Origin: an uncultured Bacilli bacterium
GTDB lineage: Bacteria; Bacillota_I; Bacilli_A; RF39; UBA660
Length of the DNA: 59,322 nucleotides
Assembly (NCBI GenBank): GCA_944329425.1
Contig: CALVIG010000004.1
Span: 1-59,322 of the forward strand
Direction: 5' to 3'
Shown here in pieces: positions 7,403-33,338 of this stretch (its first letter is position 1; each line of letters begins with the position of its first letter). The notes below the pieces were generated by a model. It was not told the origin of the DNA, ran no database searches, and saw only the letters and a list, made by a program, of their open reading frames with translations. The position numbers and the translations under genes were made by a program.

Positions 7403-8199
7403 ACGTTATTCACCAACCTTTCAAGGTCTAAACAAATGTCATCAACTAATCCATAAACCCTTAATTTTTGACTTAATTCAACCGTAAAAGGAACTTCAAG
7501 TCCTATCTTTCTCATAACTCTTTCCTCATCAAATACCCTAGGAAAAGAACCATCTACTAAAATTTTGCCATTATTTAAAACAACTAATCTATCAGAGTAG
7601 ATAGACTCATCTAAATTATGAGTAAAAGAAACAATGGTAACCCTTTTTTTTCTGTTATATTCTTTCAAAACTTTAAGAAGTTTTTCCCTTTCATTAATAT
7701 CAATCATCATTAAAGCTTCATCCAAAATTAAAATTCTAGGTTCTAACATAAGCGCACACCCTAAAGCAACCTTTTGTTTTTCTCCACCAGATAAAGAATA
7801 CGGATTTTCCTTTAATAAGCTTTCTAAGTTTAAAAGTTCTGATACTTCTTTTATTTTCTTTTTGATTGTTGATGGTTGAACAGCCATGTTTTCTAAAGAA
7901 AAAGCAAGTTCATCCTCTACCGTTTCACAAGCAAAAAAATTATCTGGATTATCAAACACAAATCCCACTTCTTTTCTAATCTCATATAAATTCTTTTTAA
8001 TAACCTTTTTACCCATAATAGTAACGTCAGAATAATTTTTCGCTAATCCCGCTAAAACCTTAACAAGCGTTGTTTTACCTGCTCCGTTTGGACCTGCGAT
8101 GGTGACCCAAGTTCCACGTTTTATTTTCAAACTAAAATCATCATAAATAAATTTGTTTCCATACCTAAACATAAGGTTATTTATTTCAATAATGTCCAA
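7393..8199 (-). CDS. ecfA1: ECF transporter ATPase EcfA1
   Basis: A 268-residue ABC ATPase. Walker A is GPNGAGKTT, the signature LSGGEKQ, Walker B LILDEA and the H-loop FTHN. The Q-loop reads FDNPDNFF, with Asp where the conserved glutamine of QNPDNQ normally sits. The start codon is TTG, well supported by AAGGAGGTGA six bases upstream. It is the first gene of the ecfA1-ecfA2-ecfT-truA unit. A TATAAT-like box lies near 8230 after an upstream terminator. Confidence 0.93.
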   Translation of the reverse strand: MDIIEINNLMFRYGNKFIYDDFSLKIKRGTWVTIAGPNGAGKTTLVKVLAGLAKNYSDVTIMGKKVIKKNLYEIRKEVGFVFDNPDNFFACETVEDELAFSLENMAVQPSTIKKKIKEVSELLNLESLLKENPYSLSGGEKQKVALGCALMLEPRILILDEALMMIDINEREKLLKVLKEYNRKKRVTIVSFTHNLDESIYSDRLVVLNNGKILVDGSFPRVFDEERVMRKIGLEVPFTVELSQKLRVYGLVDDICLDLERLVNNVWK

Positions 8200-8240
8200 C
8201 TTAAGTCACCTCCTTAAAAGTTAAGGAATTATTATATAAC

Positions 8241-8276
8241 AAAAAATAAAAAAATGCTACCTATTGATAGCACTTT
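8241..8276 (-). terminator. Intrinsic terminator of the SDR-pilin unit
   Basis: Minus-strand stem TGCTA/TAGCA with an 8-nt loop (arms 8255-8259 and 8268-8272) followed by seven T. It separates the pilin-like gene from the ECF operon. Confidence 0.7.
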
Positions 8277-8282
8277 AATACA

Positions 8283-8714
8283 TTATTCCTGTTTATAACC
8301 TTCTGTTTCATAATTTTCACAAGATATATATCCTTTAAATGATGGTCCGTCCGCTGTTTTTTTTACTTCTAAATAACCATCACAATACCCACTGCCAAAC
8401 GGACTTTTTAGTTGGCAATTATCTTTTTCACATTTTAATTCTTTTAAGTAATCTTTCAATTCATATAATGTTATTTTTTTAGAACTATCTAATTTCATAT
8501 CATCATAATTAAGTATACTCGTATCATCAGTTATAACTTCATTGCTATAGATTCCAGGCCCCAAATCCGCAATCGTATCTTCTAGTTTTTTAGCTTCTTG
8601 CAAAGCTGCATCATTCCTTATTTTCATAACCGAAACTCCCGCAATAGTCATTATAACACCTAAAACCACTATTACCGCTAAAAGCTCGATAAGAGTAAAA
8701 CCCCTGTTTTTCAT
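8283..8714 (-). CDS. Type IV pilin-like protein with prepilin N-terminus
   Basis: A 143-residue protein that starts with a prepilin cleavage site, GFTLIELL: Gly at -1, Phe at +1 and Glu at +5. A roughly 20-residue hydrophobic stretch follows. The C-terminal half contains four cysteines (CEKDNC, YC and SC) that could form disulfides. It overlaps the upstream SDR gene by 4 nt (ATGA). No pilus ATPase, platform protein or prepilin peptidase is in this window, so assembly must depend on genes elsewhere. It may be a ComG-type competence pseudopilin or a stand-alone pilin. Confidence 0.85.
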   Translation of the reverse strand: MKNRGFTLIELLAVIVVLGVIMTIAGVSVMKIRNDAALQEAKKLEDTIADLGPGIYSNEVITDDTSILNYDDMKLDSSKKITLYELKDYLKELKCEKDNCQLKSPFGSGYCDGYLEVKKTADGPSFKGYISCENYETEGYKQE

Positions 8715-9457: not shown

Positions 9458-9572
9458 ATTATCACCAACCCTATTATACTATAACATTAATAAATAATCA
9501 AAATTTTATATGTTGTAAATAATTAAAGATTATAATAAATCTTATGTTATAATTTTAATAAGGATGGATGTT

Positions 9573-10391
9573 ATGAAAATAAATAAAATTAATCTTAAAA
9601 AAGTAATCACATTTATATTAATTTTGGCACTATCACTGACATTTATTTTCTGTATGTATAAAATTATACTGTGGATAAATGATGGCGTAAAAACAAATAA
9701 AATAAAAGAAGAATTAATTAAAAACGTAGATGAAAAACCATCTATAGAAGAAAATACGGAAATAATAAATCCACCAAATGACAAGAAAAATGATTACTGG
9801 GATTACATAAAAATGAATATGTTAGACGTTAACTTTAGTGAACTCAAGAAAAAAAATAAAGATACAATAGGCTGGATAAAATTAGAAGGAACAAACGTTA
9901 ATTATCCTGTTGTTCAAGGAACGGATAATTCGTATTACTTAAATCATTCTTTTGATAAAAGTTATAACAAGGCTGGATGGGTTTTTATGGATTACCGAAA
10001 TGATTACGAAACTTTAAATAAAAACACCATAATATACGCCCATGCAAGAGTGGACGGAACAATGTTTGGAACACTAAAAAAAGTTTTAAATGAAGAATGG
10101 CATGAAAATAAAAGTAATCATATAATAAAGTTTTCTACTATAACAAAAAATTATTTATGGCAAATATTTTCTGTTTATGAAACTAAAAAAGAAAGCTACT
10201 ACTTAACAACCAAATTTTCTTCTGATAATGATTTTAATAACTTTATTAACGCATTAAAAGAAAGAAGCATTTTTAATTTTAGTGCTACACCAAAAATAAA
10301 TGATAAAATAATAACTTTATCTACTTGTAAAGACAGTAAGGGCAATAGAATCGTTGTACATGCAATATTAATAAAAATGGAAACAAAATAA
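9573..10391 (+). CDS. Class B sortase
   Basis: About 272 residues. An N-terminal membrane anchor (about 11-35) and a linker precede the class B sortase domain (about 85-270). The catalytic residues are His157 (YAHAR), Cys252 (LSTCK) and Arg259 (GNRIVVHA). The segments DTIGWIKLEGT and YPVVQGTDNSYYLNHSFD are typical of SrtB. The ATG at 9573 has AAGGATGG upstream; an ATG nine bases earlier would overlap that site. It has no substrate gene beside it, so it may be the housekeeping sortase acting on proteins encoded elsewhere, possibly including the NPxTS proteins at 24.9 and 29.3 kb. Confidence 0.93.
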   Translation: MKINKINLKKVITFILILALSLTFIFCMYKIILWINDGVKTNKIKEELIKNVDEKPSIEENTEIINPPNDKKNDYWDYIKMNMLDVNFSELKKKNKDTIGWIKLEGTNVNYPVVQGTDNSYYLNHSFDKSYNKAGWVFMDYRNDYETLNKNTIIYAHARVDGTMFGTLKKVLNEEWHENKSNHIIKFSTITKNYLWQIFSVYETKKESYYLTTKFSSDNDFNNFINALKERSIFNFSATPKINDKIITLSTCKDSKGNRIVVHAILIKMETK

Positions 10392-24910: not shown

Positions 24911-24935
24911 AAATATCTAGATATTCTAGATATTT
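24911..24935 (-). terminator. Terminator of cohesin-like gene A
   Basis: An 11-bp perfect stem AAATATCTAGA/TCTAGATATTT with a 3-nt loop, followed on the minus strand by TTTATTT. The stop codon of the gene lies in the stem. Confidence 0.85.
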
Positions 24936-25584
24936 ATTTACCTAACTTTTTTAATCTTCTTACGCCAACTATTACTCCTGTTAAAACAATTAACGTAACC
25001 AAACCAATAATTACTATGTTTACATCACTTGTACTTGGATTTTTTATTTCATTTTGTGTACCATTAGTTGTTTGGCCTGCTTCTTCATTGGCATTTGTAT
25101 TTTGATTATTATTAGTTTCTTCATTTACTTCTTTTTTATTTACAAAAGTTAGTTTTTTCGTTACATTTCCGGCAGATTTTTCTACTCCATCCACGTTTCC
25201 TAGCATAATATCATTTACACTTAGTGTTATTTCTTGACTTTCTCCTACCGTTATTCCTTCTTTTATTTTTACCTTCATTGTTACTATATTAAACGTACCA
25301 GTTTTTTCAACGTCTGTATATAACTGTATATCTCCGTTTTCGGCATCTCCTTCCCATATATCTGATGCCGTTGGTATTATTTCAAACGTCTGATCTTCTG
25401 TGTTTAAACTTCCTGATACACTTATTATTTCTTCGTCCGTTGTTGCCTTTAACGTACACACTGCTTCTTCTTGAACGTTATACGTTTGTTTATCACATGC
25501 TATTTCTACTTTACTTGCAGCCTTGATGTTTAATGGCATAATTGCCATTAATCCTATTATCATTAAACTACATATCTTCTTCAT
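24934..25584 (-). CDS. Cohesin-like cell-wall protein with NPSTS sorting signal, copy A
   Basis: A 216-residue surface protein. Signal peptide (1-23), a beta-rich domain (about 25-150), a low-complexity Asn/Glu/Thr linker (150-180), then the sorting signal NPSTS (182-186), a hydrophobic stretch (188-208) and the basic tail RRLKKLGK. The beta domain follows the cohesin pattern: an N-terminal VEIACDKQTYNVQEE strand pair, SVSGSLNTEDQTFEI, FNIVTMKVKIKEG and an ITLSVNDIMLGNVDG ending. Two cysteines near its start could form a disulfide. NPxTS fits class B sortases. The ATG at 25584 has GGGTGA upstream and is 13 nt after the LRR-dockerin stop, so the two genes form an operon. The cohesin call rests on pattern only. 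Confidence 0.75.
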   Translation of the reverse strand: MKKICSLMIIGLMAIMPLNIKAASKVEIACDKQTYNVQEEAVCTLKATTDEEIISVSGSLNTEDQTFEIIPTASDIWEGDAENGDIQLYTDVEKTGTFNIVTMKVKIKEGITVGESQEITLSVNDIMLGNVDGVEKSAGNVTKKLTFVNKKEVNEETNNNQNTNANEEAGQTTNGTQNEIKNPSTSDVNIVIIGLVTLIVLTGVIVGVRRLKKLGK

Positions 25585-25597
25585 CTTTTCACCCTTT

Positions 25598-27703
25598 CTA
25601 TAACTCATTTATTTTTCCTTTAACATACCTATATAACAATGATACATCCATTATTGTTATTTTACCATCATTATTTATATCACTTATTAAAAGTGTTTCT
25701 TGGTCTGTTATTATGCTTCTTTTCTTTATGTGTCTATATAACATAGACACATCTATTATCGTTATTTTATCATCATTGTTTATATCACCTTTTAACCTTG
25801 ATGATACCGTATATGTTTTTATTACTTCACTACCATACTTAATATACAACTTACCATTACTATACTCTTTTGCTGCGTTTGTTACTTTAATATTATCTAA
25901 ATCAAACGTTTCATCTTTTCCTATTCTTATATTATCCTTACTTAAATCATACTTACTTGATGATACACTTACTATTTTGTATGATTCCATAACCGTATTG
26001 CCATACTTTATTTCCAAAGTATTATCATTCACCACCGTTGTTAAATTAACTAGTTTTATGTTACTTAAAGAAAAACTATTTGTTCCAACATAAATATACT
26101 CTTTACTTAAATCATAAGTAGTCGATGAATAACTTAATAACTTATAACTATCTAATGTTTCACCATTGTACTTTATGTTTAAAATATTATCATTTACCTC
26201 TAAAGTACAATTTATACAATTTATCTTGGTTTTATCAAACACATTTGTTCCAACATAAATATACTCTTTACTCATATCATACTTACTTGATGATACACTT
26301 ACTATTTTATATTCTTCTACAACAACATCTCCATCCATTACTTTAAAGATACTATTTTCTATCTTTCCAGTTCCATTTTCAACCGTTATATTTTTCATTA
26401 TAGTGCTACTATCGGTATCATTCTTAGTATAAATATATTTATCCTCTTTATTTATCTCATATTTATCAGACTTTATATCAAACACCTTTATGGTTCCTTC
26501 TACTACTAAATCTTCAGAATTACTTAAGGATGAAGATTTAATTCCTTTTAGTGTTGCTTTTAGAGAAGTCGTTCCACTTTTAAGTCCTTTTATTGTTCCA
26601 TCTTCATAAGTTGCAATATCACTATCTTCCATTTCATACGTAATTGGAAATTGCTCTGGTAATTTTATATTACCAACACTATTACCTTCCACAACAGTTC
26701 CTTTAATTAGTCTATATTCTCCAAGTGATAATGGATTGTTATACAATTCCAAACGTTTTAAGGCGGTATTCTTACTTACATCTATACTACTTATGTTATT
26801 AGAATTCAAATCCAAAGTTGTTAATGCTGTATTGTTACTTAAGTCTATACTACTTAAGTTATTAAGCCTCAAATCCAAAGATATTAAGGAGGTATTCTTA
26901 CTTAAGTTTATACTATTCAAATTATTACCACCCAAATCCAAAGATGTTAAGGAGGTATTCTTACTTAAGTCTATTTCACTTATGTTATTACCACCCAAAT
27001 CCAAATATGTTAATGCAGTATTGGTGCTTACATCTATATTGTTTAGATTGTTACTATCCAAATACAAAGCTTTTAAAGCAGTATTATTACTTAAGTCTAT
27101 ATTGTTTAGATTGTTACTATACAAAAACAAAGTTTTTAAAGCAGTATTATTACTTAAGTCTATTTCACTTAAATTATTATGACCCAAATCCAAAGTTGTT
27201 AATGCTGTATTGTTACTTAAGTCTATTTCACTTAAATTATTATGACCCAAACCCAAAGTTGTTAATGCAGTATTTTTACTTACGTCTATACTGCTTAGAT
27301 TGTTATAATACAAATCCAAAGATTTTAAAGCGGTTAATTTTTCCAATCCTTTTGCACTTGTTATTTTTTCATTAGATGGTTTAAATAAGTCATCATAACT
27401 AATACTTGTTATAGTGCTTAACTGCTCATCCGTTAGGTTTGTTGTATATGGTAAACTTGTTTTATTTTCTTTGTTATATGCATCCACTACTGCTTTATAA
27501 AATATCTCATCATCAAATGCTTTATTAGCAGGTGCTCCTTTATTTATTACGCTTGCTATTATACTATTTATCTTCGTTGGGTTTGTTAAATTAATGTATA
27601 TAAAAGCTGAGGTAAATATCATTAAGAACATTATGGTTAACAATACTACTTTTCTTTTATTCTTTGTTATTAAACTTATTATTTTATTCATTCTTTTTTT
27701 CAT
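25598..27703 (-). CDS. LRR surface protein with C-terminal dockerin, copy A
   Basis: A 701-residue secreted protein. An N-terminal hydrophobic segment (about 18-38) is a signal peptide or anchor. A cap region leads into ten 21-residue leucine-rich repeats (about 123-332) of the form TALxxLxLxxNNLxxIDxSxN, the last one a divergent cap. An Ig-like region (GTTSLKATLKG) follows, then four tandem modules of about 55-60 residues starting near SDKYEINKE and SKYDMSKEYIYVG. The C-terminal 63 residues are a type I dockerin with two F-hand calcium loops, DINNDDKITIID and DINNDGKITIMD. No sorting signal is present, so attachment is expected through the dockerin. GGTGAG lies 8 nt before the ATG. Confidence 0.9.
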   Translation of the reverse strand: MKKRMNKIISLITKNKRKVVLLTIMFLMIFTSAFIYINLTNPTKINSIIASVINKGAPANKAFDDEIFYKAVVDAYNKENKTSLPYTTNLTDEQLSTITSISYDDLFKPSNEKITSAKGLEKLTALKSLDLYYNNLSSIDVSKNTALTTLGLGHNNLSEIDLSNNTALTTLDLGHNNLSEIDLSNNTALKTLFLYSNNLNNIDLSNNTALKALYLDSNNLNNIDVSTNTALTYLDLGGNNISEIDLSKNTSLTSLDLGGNNLNSINLSKNTSLISLDLRLNNLSSIDLSNNTALTTLDLNSNNISSIDVSKNTALKRLELYNNPLSLGEYRLIKGTVVEGNSVGNIKLPEQFPITYEMEDSDIATYEDGTIKGLKSGTTSLKATLKGIKSSSLSNSEDLVVEGTIKVFDIKSDKYEINKEDKYIYTKNDTDSSTIMKNITVENGTGKIENSIFKVMDGDVVVEEYKIVSVSSSKYDMSKEYIYVGTNVFDKTKINCINCTLEVNDNILNIKYNGETLDSYKLLSYSSTTYDLSKEYIYVGTNSFSLSNIKLVNLTTVVNDNTLEIKYGNTVMESYKIVSVSSSKYDLSKDNIRIGKDETFDLDNIKVTNAAKEYSNGKLYIKYGSEVIKTYTVSSRLKGDINNDDKITIIDVSMLYRHIKKRSIITDQETLLISDINNDGKITIMDVSLLYRYVKGKINEL
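26708..27336 (-). repeat. LRR array A: ten 63-bp repeats
   Basis: Tandem 63-bp units encoding 21-residue leucine-rich repeats, nine full plus one divergent C-terminal cap. Repeats 2 and 3 differ in only one residue in the encoded protein. Confidence 0.9.
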
Positions 27704-27762
27704 ATTATACACTCACCACACTATAATTATTGATAACTAATACTGCTCGCCACCTTATGTTT

Positions 27763-27792
27763 ATAGTATCATTAATAATAATTAGTGGTCAA
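27763..27792 (-). promoter_or_regulatory. Predicted promoter of LRR-dockerin gene A
   Basis: Minus-strand TTGACC (27792-27787), 18-nt spacer, TACTAT (27768-27763), about 60 nt upstream of the ATG. The same boxes occur in copy B. A short palindrome, GTCAA-AATA-TTGAC, overlaps the -35 box in this copy. Confidence 0.55.
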
Positions 27793-27840
27793 TATTTTGA
27801 CTTTTCTTGTGGATAATTTTGTGTCAATTTTTGTAAAACA

Positions 27841-27900
27841 AAAAAACACCTTAAAGGGTGTTAATCTCTGATTTTGCCAAACAAGTTAAGTAAACTTAAA
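27841..27900 (-). pseudogene. Relic of the 3' end of the Bax-inhibitor-like gene with its terminator
   Basis: The minus strand encodes ILSLLNLFGKIRD followed by a stop and an AACACC...GGTGTT hairpin with T-run. The intact gene at 32667-33338 ends LSLLNLFGKSRD followed by the same kind of hairpin. Nothing upstream of these 13 codons resembles that gene, so this is a fragment copied along with the LRR-cohesin unit. Confidence 0.88.
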
Positions 27901-28080
27901 ATCAGCTATCAAAAATACACAGCAAATAATTTCGTAGCTGATGATGATACTTTGTTTTTTACTAATAGAAATATTTTTAGACGTATTTATATACATTTAT
28001 ATTATGAATTTATAGTTTCATATTTTTTAACATCAAATCATAATAAACAATTTAAGCTATTAAAAACATAATTTTGTTTA
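27901..28080. other. AT-rich spacer at the duplication breakpoint
   Basis: About 180 nt downstream of the sortase gene with no convincing gene. It opens with an inverted repeat ATCAGCTA / TAGCTGAT (arms 8 nt, 26 nt apart, 27901-27942), directly at the end of the duplicated block. A small plus-strand open frame here overlaps the relic and has no family features. Confidence 0.5.
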
Positions 28081-28084
28081 TTAT
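28040..28084 (-). terminator. Possible long-loop hairpin after the sortase gene
   Basis: 11-nt perfect arms ATAATAAACAA / TTGTTTATTAT (28040-28050 and 28074-28084) enclosing 23 nt. The T-run expected of an intrinsic terminator is weak, so the role is uncertain. Confidence 0.4.
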
Positions 28085-29223
28085 CCTATTAGTTTAGCAT
28101 GTAAAACCATTCTTTTTTCATCATCATAGCATGATGATAAAGTAAGTATTTTATCGCTAGTTGTAACCGTAACACCAAAATCATAAATGCTTCTTGATTT
28201 GATAGTTTGTAAAAAAGCATTAAACTTTTCATCATTACTGAAACTAGTTGTTATATAATAGCTTTCTGGTTCTATAGTATATATACTAAATACTTGCCAT
28301 TTCAAATTTCCATTAGGAGTTGCTATCGTTATTATTTGGTTATCTTTGTTTTTATACCAAGAAGGTTTTAAAGTCTTTCTCATTGAGCCAAACATTTCAT
28401 TAGTAACAAGCCCATGAGCATACAAAACGTTATTTTTACTTAAATTATTTATATCATTCCTATAGTCTAAGAACACCCATCCTTTTTTATTGCTTGTTTT
28501 ATCAAATGTATGTTTTAAGTAATAGTCATTATCATTAGTATGTACAAAAGGATAATTTATTTTAGTTCCGTTTACCTTTATCCATCCTACCGTATCAGGA
28601 TTGATGTTTTTTAAGTTATCAAAATTAACTTCCAAAATACTCATATTACCATATATATCATATAAAGTAGGTTCTTTTGTCGTGGTTACTTTATTCTCAT
28701 TAGTAGTAGTTGTAACCGGCTTTTCTTCTAACTCTGCTACCTCATATATAGTATCTAAAACTTCATTTGTTTTTTTATTTTCTAAATACCAATTAATAAG
28801 AATAACCATTAAAATTATTAAGATAAAAGAACATATTGCTATAACAAAAGTCCATATATTTTTTTCAAGCTTTACCTTTTTCTTAGCTTTTTCATTAGCT
28901 TTTACAATTCCATTAATATCAGTTATATCAAGTGTTTTAGTAAAGTCTAATATTTCTATTACCTCTTTACTAGGCATTTTAATGCTTTGTGTAAAATCAA
29001 GTACTTCAATATCTTCTTTTACTGGCTTTATTTCCTTTTTAATTACTGGTTTATTTTTATATCTTTTCTTTAATTCTTTAGAATATATTTTTAAAAACCT
29101 CTTAAACCATCTTTTACTCTTAAGCCACCTAACGTCCTCTATTGATAAATAACTAGAGCTTAAACAATCGAGTAAGCTTTGTTCTTCAGAAGAAAAAACA
29201 TCATTAGCATCTTTTTTATTCAT
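28081..29223 (-). CDS. Class B sortase with long cytoplasmic N-terminal region
   Basis: A 380-residue sortase. A cytoplasmic part of about 122 residues, unusually long for this family, is followed by one membrane segment (about 123-147), a Thr-rich linker (TTTTNENKVTTTKEP) and the class B sortase domain (about 190-380). Catalytic residues: His270 (YAHGL), Cys365 (LSSCYD), Arg371 (KRMVLHA). The cytoplasmic part contains a short repeat, IEVLDFTQSI (72-81) and IEILDFTKTL (89-98). GGGAGAA precedes the ATG. It sits between two cohesin-like genes with NPSTS signals, so those are its likely substrates. Confidence 0.93.
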   Translation of the reverse strand: MNKKDANDVFSSEEQSLLDCLSSSYLSIEDVRWLKSKRWFKRFLKIYSKELKKRYKNKPVIKKEIKPVKEDIEVLDFTQSIKMPSKEVIEILDFTKTLDITDINGIVKANEKAKKKVKLEKNIWTFVIAICSFILIILMVILINWYLENKKTNEVLDTIYEVAELEEKPVTTTTNENKVTTTKEPTLYDIYGNMSILEVNFDNLKNINPDTVGWIKVNGTKINYPFVHTNDNDYYLKHTFDKTSNKKGWVFLDYRNDINNLSKNNVLYAHGLVTNEMFGSMRKTLKPSWYKNKDNQIITIATPNGNLKWQVFSIYTIEPESYYITTSFSNDEKFNAFLQTIKSRSIYDFGVTVTTSDKILTLSSCYDDEKRMVLHAKLIG

Positions 29224-29275
29224 AATTATGTTCTCCCTTCTTTATTCTACAAATAATAATACCATTATAAATAAA

Positions 29276-29300
29276 AAATATCTAGATATTCTAGATATTT
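29276..29300 (-). terminator. Terminator of cohesin-like gene B
   Basis: Identical in sequence and position to the terminator at 24911-24935, with the stop codon in the stem. Confidence 0.85.
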
Positions 29301-29949
29301 ATTTACTTAACTTTTTTAATCTTCTTACGCCAACTATTACTCCTGTTAAAACAATTAACGTAACCAAACCAATAATTACTATGTTTACATCACTTGTACT
29401 TGGATTTTTTATTTCATTTTGTGTACCATTAGTTGTTTGGCCTGCTTCTTCATTGGCATTTGTATTTTGATTATTATTAGTTTCTTCATTTACTTCTTTT
29501 TTATTTACAAAAGTTAGTTTTTTCGTTACATTTCCGGCAGATTTTTCTACTCCATCCACGTTTCCTAGCATAATATCATTTACACTTAGTGTTATTTCTT
29601 GACTTTCTCCTACCGTTATTCCTTCTTTTATTTTTACCTTCATTGTTACTATATTAAACGTACCAGTTTTTTCAACGTCTGTATATAACTGTATATCTCC
29701 GTTTTCGGCATCTCCTTCCCATATATCTGATGCCGTTGGTATTATTTCAAACGTCTGATCTTCTGTGTTTAAACTTCCTGATACACTTATTATTTCTTCG
29801 TCCGTTGTTGCCTTTAACGTACACACTGCTTCTTCTTGAACGTTATACGTTTGTTTATCACATGCTATTTCTACTTTACTTGCAGCCTTGATGTTTAATG
29901 GCATAATTGCCATTAATCCTATTATCATTAAACTACATATCTTCTTCAT
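29299..29949 (-). CDS. Cohesin-like cell-wall protein with NPSTS sorting signal, copy B
   Basis: A 216-residue protein identical to copy A except for one residue in the C-terminal tail (LSK instead of LGK). Same layout: signal peptide, cohesin-like beta domain, Asn/Glu/Thr linker, NPSTS, membrane stretch and basic tail. It lies 13 nt after the LRR-dockerin B stop and about 75 nt upstream of the class B sortase gene, so the three genes probably form the original unit: LRR-dockerin, cohesin, sortase. The protein is expected to be cut at NPST-S and linked to peptidoglycan; this is inference from class B sortase biology. Confidence 0.75.
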   Translation of the reverse strand: MKKICSLMIIGLMAIMPLNIKAASKVEIACDKQTYNVQEEAVCTLKATTDEEIISVSGSLNTEDQTFEIIPTASDIWEGDAENGDIQLYTDVEKTGTFNIVTMKVKIKEGITVGESQEITLSVNDIMLGNVDGVEKSAGNVTKKLTFVNKKEVNEETNNNQNTNANEEAGQTTNGTQNEIKNPSTSDVNIVIIGLVTLIVLTGVIVGVRRLKKLSK

Positions 29950-29962
29950 CTTTTCACCCTTT

Positions 29963-32509
29963 CTATAACTCATTTATTTTTCCTTTAACATACCTATATA
30001 ACAATGATACATCCATTATTGTTATTTTACCATCATTATTTATATCACTTATTAAAAGTGTTTCTTGGTCTGTTATTATGCTTCTTTTCTTTATGTGTCT
30101 ATATAACATAGACACATCTATTATCGTTATTTTATCATCATTGTTTATATCACCTTTTAACCTTGATGATACCGTATATGTTTTTATTACTTCACTACCA
30201 TACTTAATATACAACTTACCATTACTATACTCTTTTGCTGCGTTTGTTACTTTAATATTATCTAAATCAAACGTTTCATCTTTTCCTATTCTTATATTAT
30301 CCTTACTTAAATCATACTTACTTGATGATACACTTACTATTTTGTATGATTCCATAACCGTATTGCCATACTTTATTTCCAAAGTATTATCATTCACCAC
30401 CGTTGTTAAATTAACTAGTTTTATGTTACTTAAAGAAAAACTATTTGTTCCAACATAAATATACTCTTTACTTAAATCATAAGTAGTCGATGAATAACTT
30501 AATAACTTATAACTATCTAATGTTTCACCATTGTACTTTATGTTTAAAATATTATCATTTACCTCTAAAGTACAATTTATACAATTTATCTTGGTTTTAT
30601 CAAACACATTTGTTCCAACATAAATATACTCTTTACTCATATCATACTTACTTGATGATACACTTACTATTTTATATTCTTCTACAACAACATCTCCATC
30701 CATTACTTTAAAGATACTATTTTCTATCTTTCCAGTTCCATTTTCAACCGTTATATTTTTCATTATAGTGCTACTATCGGTATCATTCTTAGTATAAATA
30801 TATTTATCCTCTTTATTTATCTCATATTTATCAGACTTTATATCAAACACCTTTATGGTTCCTTCTACTACTAAATCTTCAGAATTACTTAAGGATGAAG
30901 ATTTAATTCCTTTTAGTGTTGCTTTTAGAGAAGTCGTTCCACTTTTAAGTCCTTTTATTGTTCCATCTTCATAAGTTGCAATATCACTATCTTCCATTTC
31001 ATACGTAATTGGAAATTGCTCTGGTAATTTTATATTACCAACACTATTACCTTCCACAACAGTTCCTTTAATTAGTCTATATTCTCCAAGTGATAATGGA
31101 TTGTTATACAATTCCAAACGTTTTAAGGAGGTATTCTTACTTACGTCTATACTACTTAAATTATTACTACTCAAATCTAAAGATGTTAAGGAGGTATTCT
31201 TACTTACGTCTATACTACTTATGTTATTAGAATTCAAATCCAAAGATGTTAAGGAGGTATTGTTATTTAAGTCTATGCTAATTAAATTATTACTACTCAA
31301 ATACAAATACGTTAATGCTGTATTGTTACTTAAGTCTATACTACTTATGTTATTAAGCCTCAAATCCAAATATGTTAATGCAGTATTGGTGCTTACATCT
31401 ATACTGCTTAAGTTACTAGACCTCAAATACAAATACGTTAATGCTGTATTCTTACTTACGTCTATACTACTTAAATTATTATTACTCAAATACAAAGTTG
31501 TTAATGCCGTATTGTTACTTACGTCTATACTACTTATGTTGTTATATCCCAAATACAAAAATGTTAATGCGGTATTCTTACTTAAGTCTATACTACTTAT
31601 GTTATTATATCTCAAATCCAAAGTTGTTAATGCGGTATTGTTATTTACATCTATGCTGCTTAAGTTATTAGAGTACAAATTCAAATATGTTAATGCTGTA
31701 TTCTTACTTACGTCTATACTACTTAAATTATTATTACTCAAATACAAAAATGTTAATGCGGTATTCTTACTTAAGTCTATACTACTTATGTTATTATATC
31801 TCAAATCCAAAGTTGTTAATGCGGTATTGTTATTTACATCTATGCTGCTTAAGTTATTAGAGTACAAATTCAAACGTGTTAATGCGGTATTCTTACTTAA
31901 GTCTATTTCACTTAAATTATTATTACTCAAATACAAAGTTGTTAATGCCGTATTGTTACTTACGTCTATACTACTTATGTTGTTATATCCCAAATTCAAA
32001 TATGTTAATGCTGTATTCTTACTTACGTCTATACTACTTAAATTATTATTACTCAAATACAAAGTTGTTAATGCCGTATTGTTACTTACGTCTATACTGC
32101 TTAGATTATTATAATACAAATCCAAAGATTTTAAAGCGGTTAATTTTTCCAATCCTTTTGAACTTATTATTTTTTCATTAGATGGTTTACCATAGCCACT
32201 ATAACTAATACTTGTTATAGTGCTTAACTGCTCATCCGTTAGGTTTGTTGTGTATGGTAGGCTTGTATTATTTTCTTTGTTATATGCATCCAATACTGCT
32301 TTATAAAATATCTCATCATCAAATGCTTTATTAGCAGGTGCTCCTTTATTTATTACGCTTGCTATCATACTATTTATCTTCGTCGGATTTGTTAAATTAA
32401 TGTATATAAAAGCTGAGGTAAATATCATTAAGAACATTATGGTTAATAATACTACTTTTCTTTTATTCTTTGTTATTAAACTTATTATTTTATTCATTCT
32501 TTTTTTCAT
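29963..32509 (-). CDS. LRR surface protein with C-terminal dockerin, copy B
   Basis: An 848-residue paralogue of the protein at 25598-27703. Signal or anchor segment at about 18-38, then 17 leucine-rich repeats of 21 residues (about 123-479, the last a cap), an Ig-like segment, four tandem modules of about 55-60 residues and a two-loop type I dockerin (about 786-848). It is longer than copy A by exactly 147 residues, or seven repeats. The part after the array appears identical to copy A, whereas the cap before it differs (for example SISYSGYGK against SISYDDLFK). LRR surfaces typically bind proteins or glycans; the ligand is unknown. Confidence 0.9.
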   Translation of the reverse strand: MKKRMNKIISLITKNKRKVVLLTIMFLMIFTSAFIYINLTNPTKINSMIASVINKGAPANKAFDDEIFYKAVLDAYNKENNTSLPYTTNLTDEQLSTITSISYSGYGKPSNEKIISSKGLEKLTALKSLDLYYNNLSSIDVSNNTALTTLYLSNNNLSSIDVSKNTALTYLNLGYNNISSIDVSNNTALTTLYLSNNNLSEIDLSKNTALTRLNLYSNNLSSIDVNNNTALTTLDLRYNNISSIDLSKNTALTFLYLSNNNLSSIDVSKNTALTYLNLYSNNLSSIDVNNNTALTTLDLRYNNISSIDLSKNTALTFLYLGYNNISSIDVSNNTALTTLYLSNNNLSSIDVSKNTALTYLYLRSSNLSSIDVSTNTALTYLDLRLNNISSIDLSNNTALTYLYLSSNNLISIDLNNNTSLTSLDLNSNNISSIDVSKNTSLTSLDLSSNNLSSIDVSKNTSLKRLELYNNPLSLGEYRLIKGTVVEGNSVGNIKLPEQFPITYEMEDSDIATYEDGTIKGLKSGTTSLKATLKGIKSSSLSNSEDLVVEGTIKVFDIKSDKYEINKEDKYIYTKNDTDSSTIMKNITVENGTGKIENSIFKVMDGDVVVEEYKIVSVSSSKYDMSKEYIYVGTNVFDKTKINCINCTLEVNDNILNIKYNGETLDSYKLLSYSSTTYDLSKEYIYVGTNSFSLSNIKLVNLTTVVNDNTLEIKYGNTVMESYKIVSVSSSKYDLSKDNIRIGKDETFDLDNIKVTNAAKEYSNGKLYIKYGSEVIKTYTVSSRLKGDINNDDKITIIDVSMLYRHIKKRSIITDQETLLISDINNDGKITIMDVSLLYRYVKGKINEL
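31073..32142 (-). repeat. LRR array B: seventeen 63-bp repeats
   Basis: Sixteen full 63-bp repeats plus a divergent cap. A larger duplication is visible inside: the roughly 130 bp starting at 31561 recur at 31750, a shift of 189 bp or exactly three repeats, apparently without change. Confidence 0.9.
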
Positions 32510-32568
32510 ATTATATACTCACCACTCTATAATTATTGATAACTAATACTGCTCACTACCTTAAGTTT

Positions 32569-32598
32569 ATAGTATCATTAATAATAATTAATGGTCAA
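32569..32598 (-). promoter_or_regulatory. Predicted promoter of LRR-dockerin gene B
   Basis: Minus-strand TTGACC (32598-32593), 18-nt spacer, TACTAT (32574-32569), the same arrangement as in copy A. Confidence 0.55.
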
Positions 32599-32644
32599 TA
32601 TTTTGGCTTTTCCTGTGGATAATTTTGTGTCAATTTTTGTAAAA

Positions 32645-32668
32645 CAAAAAAACACCTTAAAAGGTGTT
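32645..32668 (-). terminator. Terminator of the Bax-inhibitor-like gene
   Basis: Minus-strand stem AACACCTT/AAGGTGTT (arms 32668-32661 and 32658-32651) followed by seven T. A near-copy is at 27839-27862 as part of the duplication. Confidence 0.85.
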
Positions 32669-33338
32669 AATCTCTACTTTTTCCAAACAAGTTAAGTAAG
32701 CTTAAGAATATGTTAATAAAGTCTAAATACAAATCTAGTGCACCATATATTGCCATTTTACCTAACTCTCGTTCATCAGATGAATAATAATTATACATTG
32801 CCTTTAATGCTTGCATATCCCAAGCGGTAAGTCCCAAGAATATTACCACTGACACTATTGATATAAATATGTTAAATGATTCATTACCAACAAAAATGTT
32901 TATAAGTGACATTACAACTATTGCTAGTAAGGCAAATATAAGTATTTTACCTAAAGATGATAAATCTTGCTTTGTTATGTATCCATATAACGCTAGTAAA
33001 CCAAACATTACCGCTGCTGATAAAAATACCAAGCCAACACTTTCAATTTTATATACTAAGAAAATTGATGATAACGTAAGTCCACTTATAGCGGAATATG
33101 CAATAAATAAAATTTTAGCAACCAGTGGTGATACTTTATTTCTTAAAGCGCTAAAAGCTATTACAACGATTAGTTCAATAATAAGTATCAAGTTAAAGCT
33201 TGAATAAACCATTCGTATCATTGCTGGAGTAACAGAAGTGTAATAAGCAACGCCTCCTGATATTAAAAGTCCTATGAACATCCATAGGTAAACCTTGGAA
33301 AAAAATTTTGATATTCCGTTTTCACTATTTATAACCAT
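32667..33338 (-). CDS. Bax inhibitor-1/YccA family membrane protein
   Basis: A 223-residue integral membrane protein with about seven helices. Family features: the N-terminal KVYLWMFIGLLISGGVAYY, AYSAISGLTLSSIF in the middle and the C-terminal ALDLYLDFINIFLSLLNLFG. Related proteins in bacteria are proposed calcium leak channels or protease modulators. AGGAGG lies just upstream of the ATG. It is the gene whose 3' end was copied into the duplicated block. Confidence 0.93.
   Translation of the reverse strand: MVINSENGISKFFSKVYLWMFIGLLISGGVAYYTSVTPAMIRMVYSSFNLILIIELIVVIAFSALRNKVSPLVAKILFIAYSAISGLTLSSIFLVYKIESVGLVFLSAAVMFGLLALYGYITKQDLSSLGKILIFALLAIVVMSLINIFVGNESFNIFISIVSVVIFLGLTAWDMQALKAMYNYYSSDERELGKMAIYGALDLYLDFINIFLSLLNLFGKSRD

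Follow-up and report, generated by a model that had tools for sequence, protein, structure and literature searches.

Gene order at the BI-1/S10 locus

The window (the whole stretch of 59,322 nucleotides that was analysed, from a host genome of 1.1 Mb assembled in 18 contigs) carries on its minus strand, between a BI-1 gene and the S10 ribosomal operon, two cassettes that each pair an LRR gene with a gene for a predicted cohesin. The minus-strand order is BI-1, LRR-B (29963..32509, 848 aa), cohesin-B (29299..29973, 224 aa), a class B sortase located between the cassettes (28081..29223, 380 aa; NCBIfam equivalog TIGR03064, 177.1 bits, cut-off 153.75), a copy of the 3' end of the BI-1 gene with its terminator and leader (27733..27905), LRR-A (25598..27703, 701 aa), cohesin-A (24934..25608, 224 aa) and the S10 operon. 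In both cassettes the cohesin gene is directly 3' of the LRR gene and overlaps it. The BI-1 tail copy upstream of LRR-A is identical at 158 of 173 positions to its counterpart, the BI-1 3' end and LRR-B leader (32539..32711, also minus strand). A second class B sortase (9564-10391; TIGR03064, 187.9 bits) is encoded on the opposite (plus) strand, beside the ribosomal operon.

LRR-B is composed of a predicted membrane-spanning N-terminus, an LRR cap, 16 LRRs of 21 aa with a C cap, a stalk of beta repeats and a type I dockerin; LRR-A has the same architecture with nine LRR units and a cap. Both proteins pass the Pfam cut-offs for LRR and for type I dockerin (PF00404, 43.1 and 42.7 bits, cut-off 22.9), with the calcium-loop/F-hand motif present twice, as two DxNxDxxxxxxD loops, in the dockerin (25622..25792 in LRR-A and 29987..30157 in LRR-B, minus strand).

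The slot between BI-1 and S10 differs among species of the genus. In seven others (G001, G005, G008, G010, G011, G012, G015) S10 follows BI-1 directly; in G013 and G003 the slot is occupied by a protein ending in NPKTSD or NPKTAD and a class B sortase, and in G017 by a 338-aa NPKTSD protein, a sortase and LRR genes. The gene of the 338-aa protein and cohesin-B have a common 3' end and terminator and a similar leader, and at position B the LRR-cohesin cassette probably took the place of an earlier sortase substrate by way of these common ends.

Repeat arrays and uneven divergence

Tandem Repeats Finder reports a period of 63 at 26744-27328 (score 531) and 31123-32140 (score 1171). Array A has nine full 63-bp units (26753..27319) and array B has 16 (31118..32125), both on the minus strand, and the same degenerate cap closes each of them (C-cap units at 26690-26752 and 31055-31117). 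An earlier note on this DNA had placed both arrays correctly; its counts of 10 and 17 units include the cap. When counted from the equivalent ATG, the genes have 701 and 848 codons (ORF A reaches 704 aa only from an upstream GTG), and the difference of 441 bp, or 7 x 63, agrees with the 147 residues (7 x 21) reported previously. That this amounts to exactly seven units, which the note had singled out, is not in itself evidence: outside the arrays A and B are equal in length, so the arrays can differ only by whole units, and an integer difference is expected of any in-frame LRR pair.

Array B contains an exact 136-bp duplication (first copy 31739..31874, second copy 31550..31685, minus strand), by which units 5-6 equal units 8-9. 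The offset of 189 bp is that of the duplication described earlier, of which the extent has to be corrected: the exact copy comprises two units, and the third unit differs, units 7 and 10 being only 84% identical. Unit 7 is not duplicated and matches units elsewhere instead. Further exact block repeats of 95, 86, 73, 63 and 60 bp are present in array B, and array A has no exact self-repeat longer than 42 bp; recent expansion or shuffling is visible in array B and not in array A. The proposal that repeats are gained and lost without a change in anchoring is sustained by the equal lengths of the N-terminus, stalk, dockerin and anchor partner in the two cassettes and by the recent block duplications of array B.

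Divergence between the cassettes is uneven. The leaders differ at 13 of 192 positions and the N-terminal regions at 18 of 384 (together 31/576, or 5.4%), and about 16% of the paired array positions differ; there are no differences in the 1,155 positions of the C-terminal half and only one in the 675 of the cohesin gene. The exact block, 24943..26763 in cassette A and 29308..31128 in cassette B (minus strand), is 1,821 bp long and comprises the dockerin/cohesin half; at the 5' rate approximately 98 differences would be expected in it and none is observed (P ~2e-44). The identity is explained either by gene conversion or by partial copying in the very recent past, with homogenisation by the assembler as the main alternative; a very recent copying event could have produced the block without any continuing conversion, and so could assembly or polishing. 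Identical anchor halves joined to differing binding surfaces suggest that the binding part is being diversified by recombination.

In a related species, G017 (CASEKZ01, a metagenome bin), one contig holds the sortase, a copy of the BI-1 tail and an LRR gene that is truncated where the contig stops; a second contig holds another LRR gene, the S10 operon and a gene for a cohesin with 88% protein identity. The first LRR gene of G017 is a mosaic: of the 14 informative homologous sites up to window position 27641, 13 agree with copy A, and from 27581 on all 20 agree with copy B, so that the turn from A-like to B-like lies within 27582..27640 on the minus strand (13 A-like and one B-like site left of the breakpoint vs 0/20 A-like right of it; Fisher 1.5e-8). 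Grouping by N-terminal sequence joins B with the G017 gene, and grouping by the C-terminal half joins A with B. DNA identity between G017 and the window is 68-81% in the upstream housekeeping genes and 84-88% in the ribosomal genes; it is 93% in the sortase, 97.6% in the intergenic region and 99.5% in the LRR-B N-terminus. These identities mark the shared stretch as an exchanged island, and a binning error does not account for it because a single contig holds both the diverged flank and the conserved island. Apart from CASEKZ01, the close relative, a scan of named genomes returned nothing but a distant dockerin protein of Candidatus Aphodocola, and no relatives were found in viral contigs. Just upstream of the second LRR gene of G017 is an apparent fragment of an insertion-sequence transposase (L021 1-340, noted by eye). 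The stalk in G017 (L045/L021 409-2889) has one extra 55-aa beta repeat, indicating that stalk length varies too, and lengths of 22 or 26 aa occur among the LRR units there.

In LRR proteins the LxLxx strand lines the concave face of the solenoid. Repeat positions 21, 2, 4 and 5, which are exposed around this strand, vary more than any other of the 5,985 possible sets of four positions, and again show the greatest variability in the seven regular units of G017; the strand positions in a structural model of LRR-A agree with a concave placement of the variable residues. At these positions pN/pS is about 5 (bootstrap 3.0-16.6) and elsewhere about 0.25 (0.19-0.31), a ratio among paralogous repeats that is not a formal selection test, so that it points to selection as the probable cause of the variability rather than establishing it. 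The earlier suggestion that array size is a route to surface variation thus had the right direction and was incomplete, most of the variation being residue change on the concave face, not length.

Three of the four variable codons always have T in the third place (P ~3e-5, given codon use in the window). This is better read as first- and second-base change at a conserved NNT codon, a reading preferred because the A bases of invariant Asn codons do not vary. A diversity-generating retroelement was considered and rejected, as the only RVT_1 match of the genome is retron-like; no LRR template repeat was found on contig 16, which carries this reverse transcriptase (7746-8321, the only one found in the genome; best PADLOC match, the retron Ec107-like family). 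Antigenic variation from silent cassettes, of the vls or pilin type, was rejected as well, since no silent partial copies were found: a search of the host's own genome (95.8% complete) for donor copies matched only the two full loci.

An ordinary recent tandem duplication of the LRR-cohesin unit, followed by neutral drift in repeat number without any special diversification, would fit the presence of the BI-1 tail as a direct repeat ahead of both copies, and the unit duplications of array B are typical of unequal recombination. Such a history is nevertheless unlikely, for it predicts even divergence, whereas one half of the cassette is invariant and the 5' end is not; nor does it sit well with the mosaic gene of G017 or with variation that is concentrated at concave positions and includes few silent changes.

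Predicted fold and display of the proteins

By sequence, the best solved relative of the LRR proteins is InlJ (PDB 3bz5; phmmer E 2.6e-48 for B and 3.3e-37 for A), and the AlphaFold model of LRR-A (pLDDT >90 across most of the solenoid, approximately 35 in the dockerin) matches 3bz5 with Z 33.2 and 2.1 A over 279 residues. InlJ-specific traits were not found in either protein: the repeats have no Cys, the C-terminus is a dockerin, and the NCBIfam InlJ model gives 103.7 bits against a cut-off of 1700. LRR-A and LRR-B are InlJ-like, not InlJ.

Because cohesin-A and cohesin-B have no match to the Pfam cohesin family PF00963, their assignment as cohesins is a prediction from structure, made on a two-sequence AlphaFold model with a mean pLDDT of 64 (one of five models was good). 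Foldseek places cohesins first (2vo8, E 4e-6), VIA aligns the model to 2vo8 with Z 13.8 and 2.6 A over 124 residues, and the best 28 rows are all cohesin or cohesin-like modules. Each 224-aa protein consists of a single such domain, predicted to have the cohesin jelly-roll fold, a linker and a sorting tail, in which NPSTSD is followed by a hydrophobic segment and a basic RRLKK tail. This corresponds to the pattern of class B sortase substrates (NPxTx motif, membrane segment, basic tail), and comparable NPKTSD or NPKTAD tails are encoded immediately before the sortase gene in G013, G006 and G003. The NPSTSD tail is therefore a putative class B sortase substrate, through which the cohesin protein is probably attached to the wall; gene order and co-duplication argue for the putative pairing of dockerin with cohesin.

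The N-terminal hydrophobic stretch of the LRR proteins lacks an obvious cleavage motif. If it stays uncleaved and anchors the protein in the membrane, as it may, the dockerin would be a second tether or would reach elsewhere. One could then suppose that the LRR protein is held in the membrane by its N-terminus and that its dockerin captures other cohesin proteins, as a scaffold or a cell-cell tether instead of a wall-docked adhesin; on contig 15 another Pfam cohesin match does adjoin a dockerin, beside or within a dockerin-bearing protein (2365-2900). This is improbable given that a cohesin gene overlaps the end of the LRR gene in both copies, and that G010, too, has an LRR-dockerin gene near a cohesin-like gene of weak similarity, with one LRR gene between them. 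Within the genus, 13 of 18 genomes have a Pfam cohesin match, for the most part in open frames that run to about 530 aa. On host contig 4 (83482-83640) a pilin-like protein, which starts with a prepilin-type N-terminus, ends in a dockerin.

A probable cohesin-anchored adhesin and its relation to known systems

The preferred reading, to which a probability of roughly 0.6 is given, is that of a duplicated, cohesin-anchored adhesin of which the binding face diversifies by recombination and selection and the anchor is homogenised. Two copies of the adhesin cassette would occupy the slot between BI-1 and the S10 operon; the LRR protein would be secreted by means of its N-terminal hydrophobic segment, its C-terminal dockerin would dock onto the cohesin protein encoded just downstream, and the neighbouring class B sortase would link that protein to the cell wall by its NPSTSD tail. 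The concave face of the InlJ-type solenoid would bind a ligand that is most probably a glycoprotein, mucin for example. Homologous recombination would keep the dockerin/cohesin half identical (by ectopic gene conversion or recent copying), duplicate and shuffle 63-bp units within the arrays, and swap 5' halves between loci and species, and residue change on the concave face would be favoured by selection. Of this, the anatomy of the locus, the identity block, the unit duplications, the mosaic gene and the variability of the concave positions were observed directly; the pairing of cohesin with dockerin, the attachment to the wall, the ligand and the role of selection are inferred. The earlier note, whose interpretation is partly supported, had not recognised the predicted dockerin-cohesin-sortase anchoring, the 1,821-bp identity or the recombination of 5' halves between loci and species. 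That repeats were collapsed or copies homogenised by the assembler or by polishing, making identity and copy numbers unreliable, is the least probable of the alternatives: although a perfect 1,821-bp repeat is hard for short reads, the G017 assembly breaks inside the first array units, and the host genome is in 18 contigs with the type of sequencing not given, the copies have distinct flanks within one contig, one difference at the cohesin 3' end and others just downstream survive, the frames are intact in both genes, and the corresponding region of G017 has two LRR genes too.

Listeria InlJ is a surface adhesin that binds MUC2 (PMC7291126), and on account of this mucin or another glycoprotein is at most a reasonable guess for the ligand. 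The 21-residue LRR with its IDVSxNTxLTxL core is common to InlJ and the proteins described here, InlJ being the strongest match in both sequence and fold. InlJ differs in having a Cys ladder, in which Cys is replaced here by Leu, and in being displayed by its own LPXTG tail, whereas display through a dockerin is predicted here, with two recombining copies. The joining of LRRs to a dockerin for cohesin-mediated display recalls Ruminococcus flavefaciens FD-1, in which 28 LRR entries are listed among the dockerin proteins (PMC2930009); there they belong to a large cellulosome, and here to a minimal pair of LRR and cohesin accompanied by a class B sortase of its own, in a genome of 1.1 Mb. Flavobacterium psychrophilum, of another phylum, has a cluster of tandem LRR genes of which the number differs between isolates (PMC8400371); in the part of that account available, the variation is mainly in gene number and a cohesin anchor is not described. 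No direct precedent for repeat-number variation in bacterial LRRs was found in the literature beyond F. psychrophilum, and no report of LRR, dockerin-cohesin and sortase in combination was found in the open-licence literature.

More tentatively, the locus might be a receptor-like system, functionally resembling the variable lymphocyte receptors (VLRs) of lampreys, in which recombination, both between the paired loci and between species, exchanges a hypervariable LRR binding face and alters its length on a constant dockerin-cohesin-sortase display module. The likeness to VLRs is one of geometry only, the two not being homologous as systems, and a silent donor archive was not found here.

The identical anchor half, the mosaic gene common to the two species and the variability of the concave face are more interesting than the repeat count. 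If the preferred reading of a diversifying adhesin on a homogenised anchor is true, this poorly known lineage of the gut, with a genome of 1.1 Mb, keeps its display module constant and lets a separate LRR binder diversify rapidly. The locus would then offer a specific example, open to checking, of diversification on the concave face of bacterial LRRs, along with a natural set of binder variants and a reason for the breaks of short-read assemblies at such loci. A repeat-rich family is also found in G010, where tandem genes (L044 10464-13001) consist of a near-identical short repeat (TKENKDELTKGIIQTNDA...) of which the unit number seems to vary.
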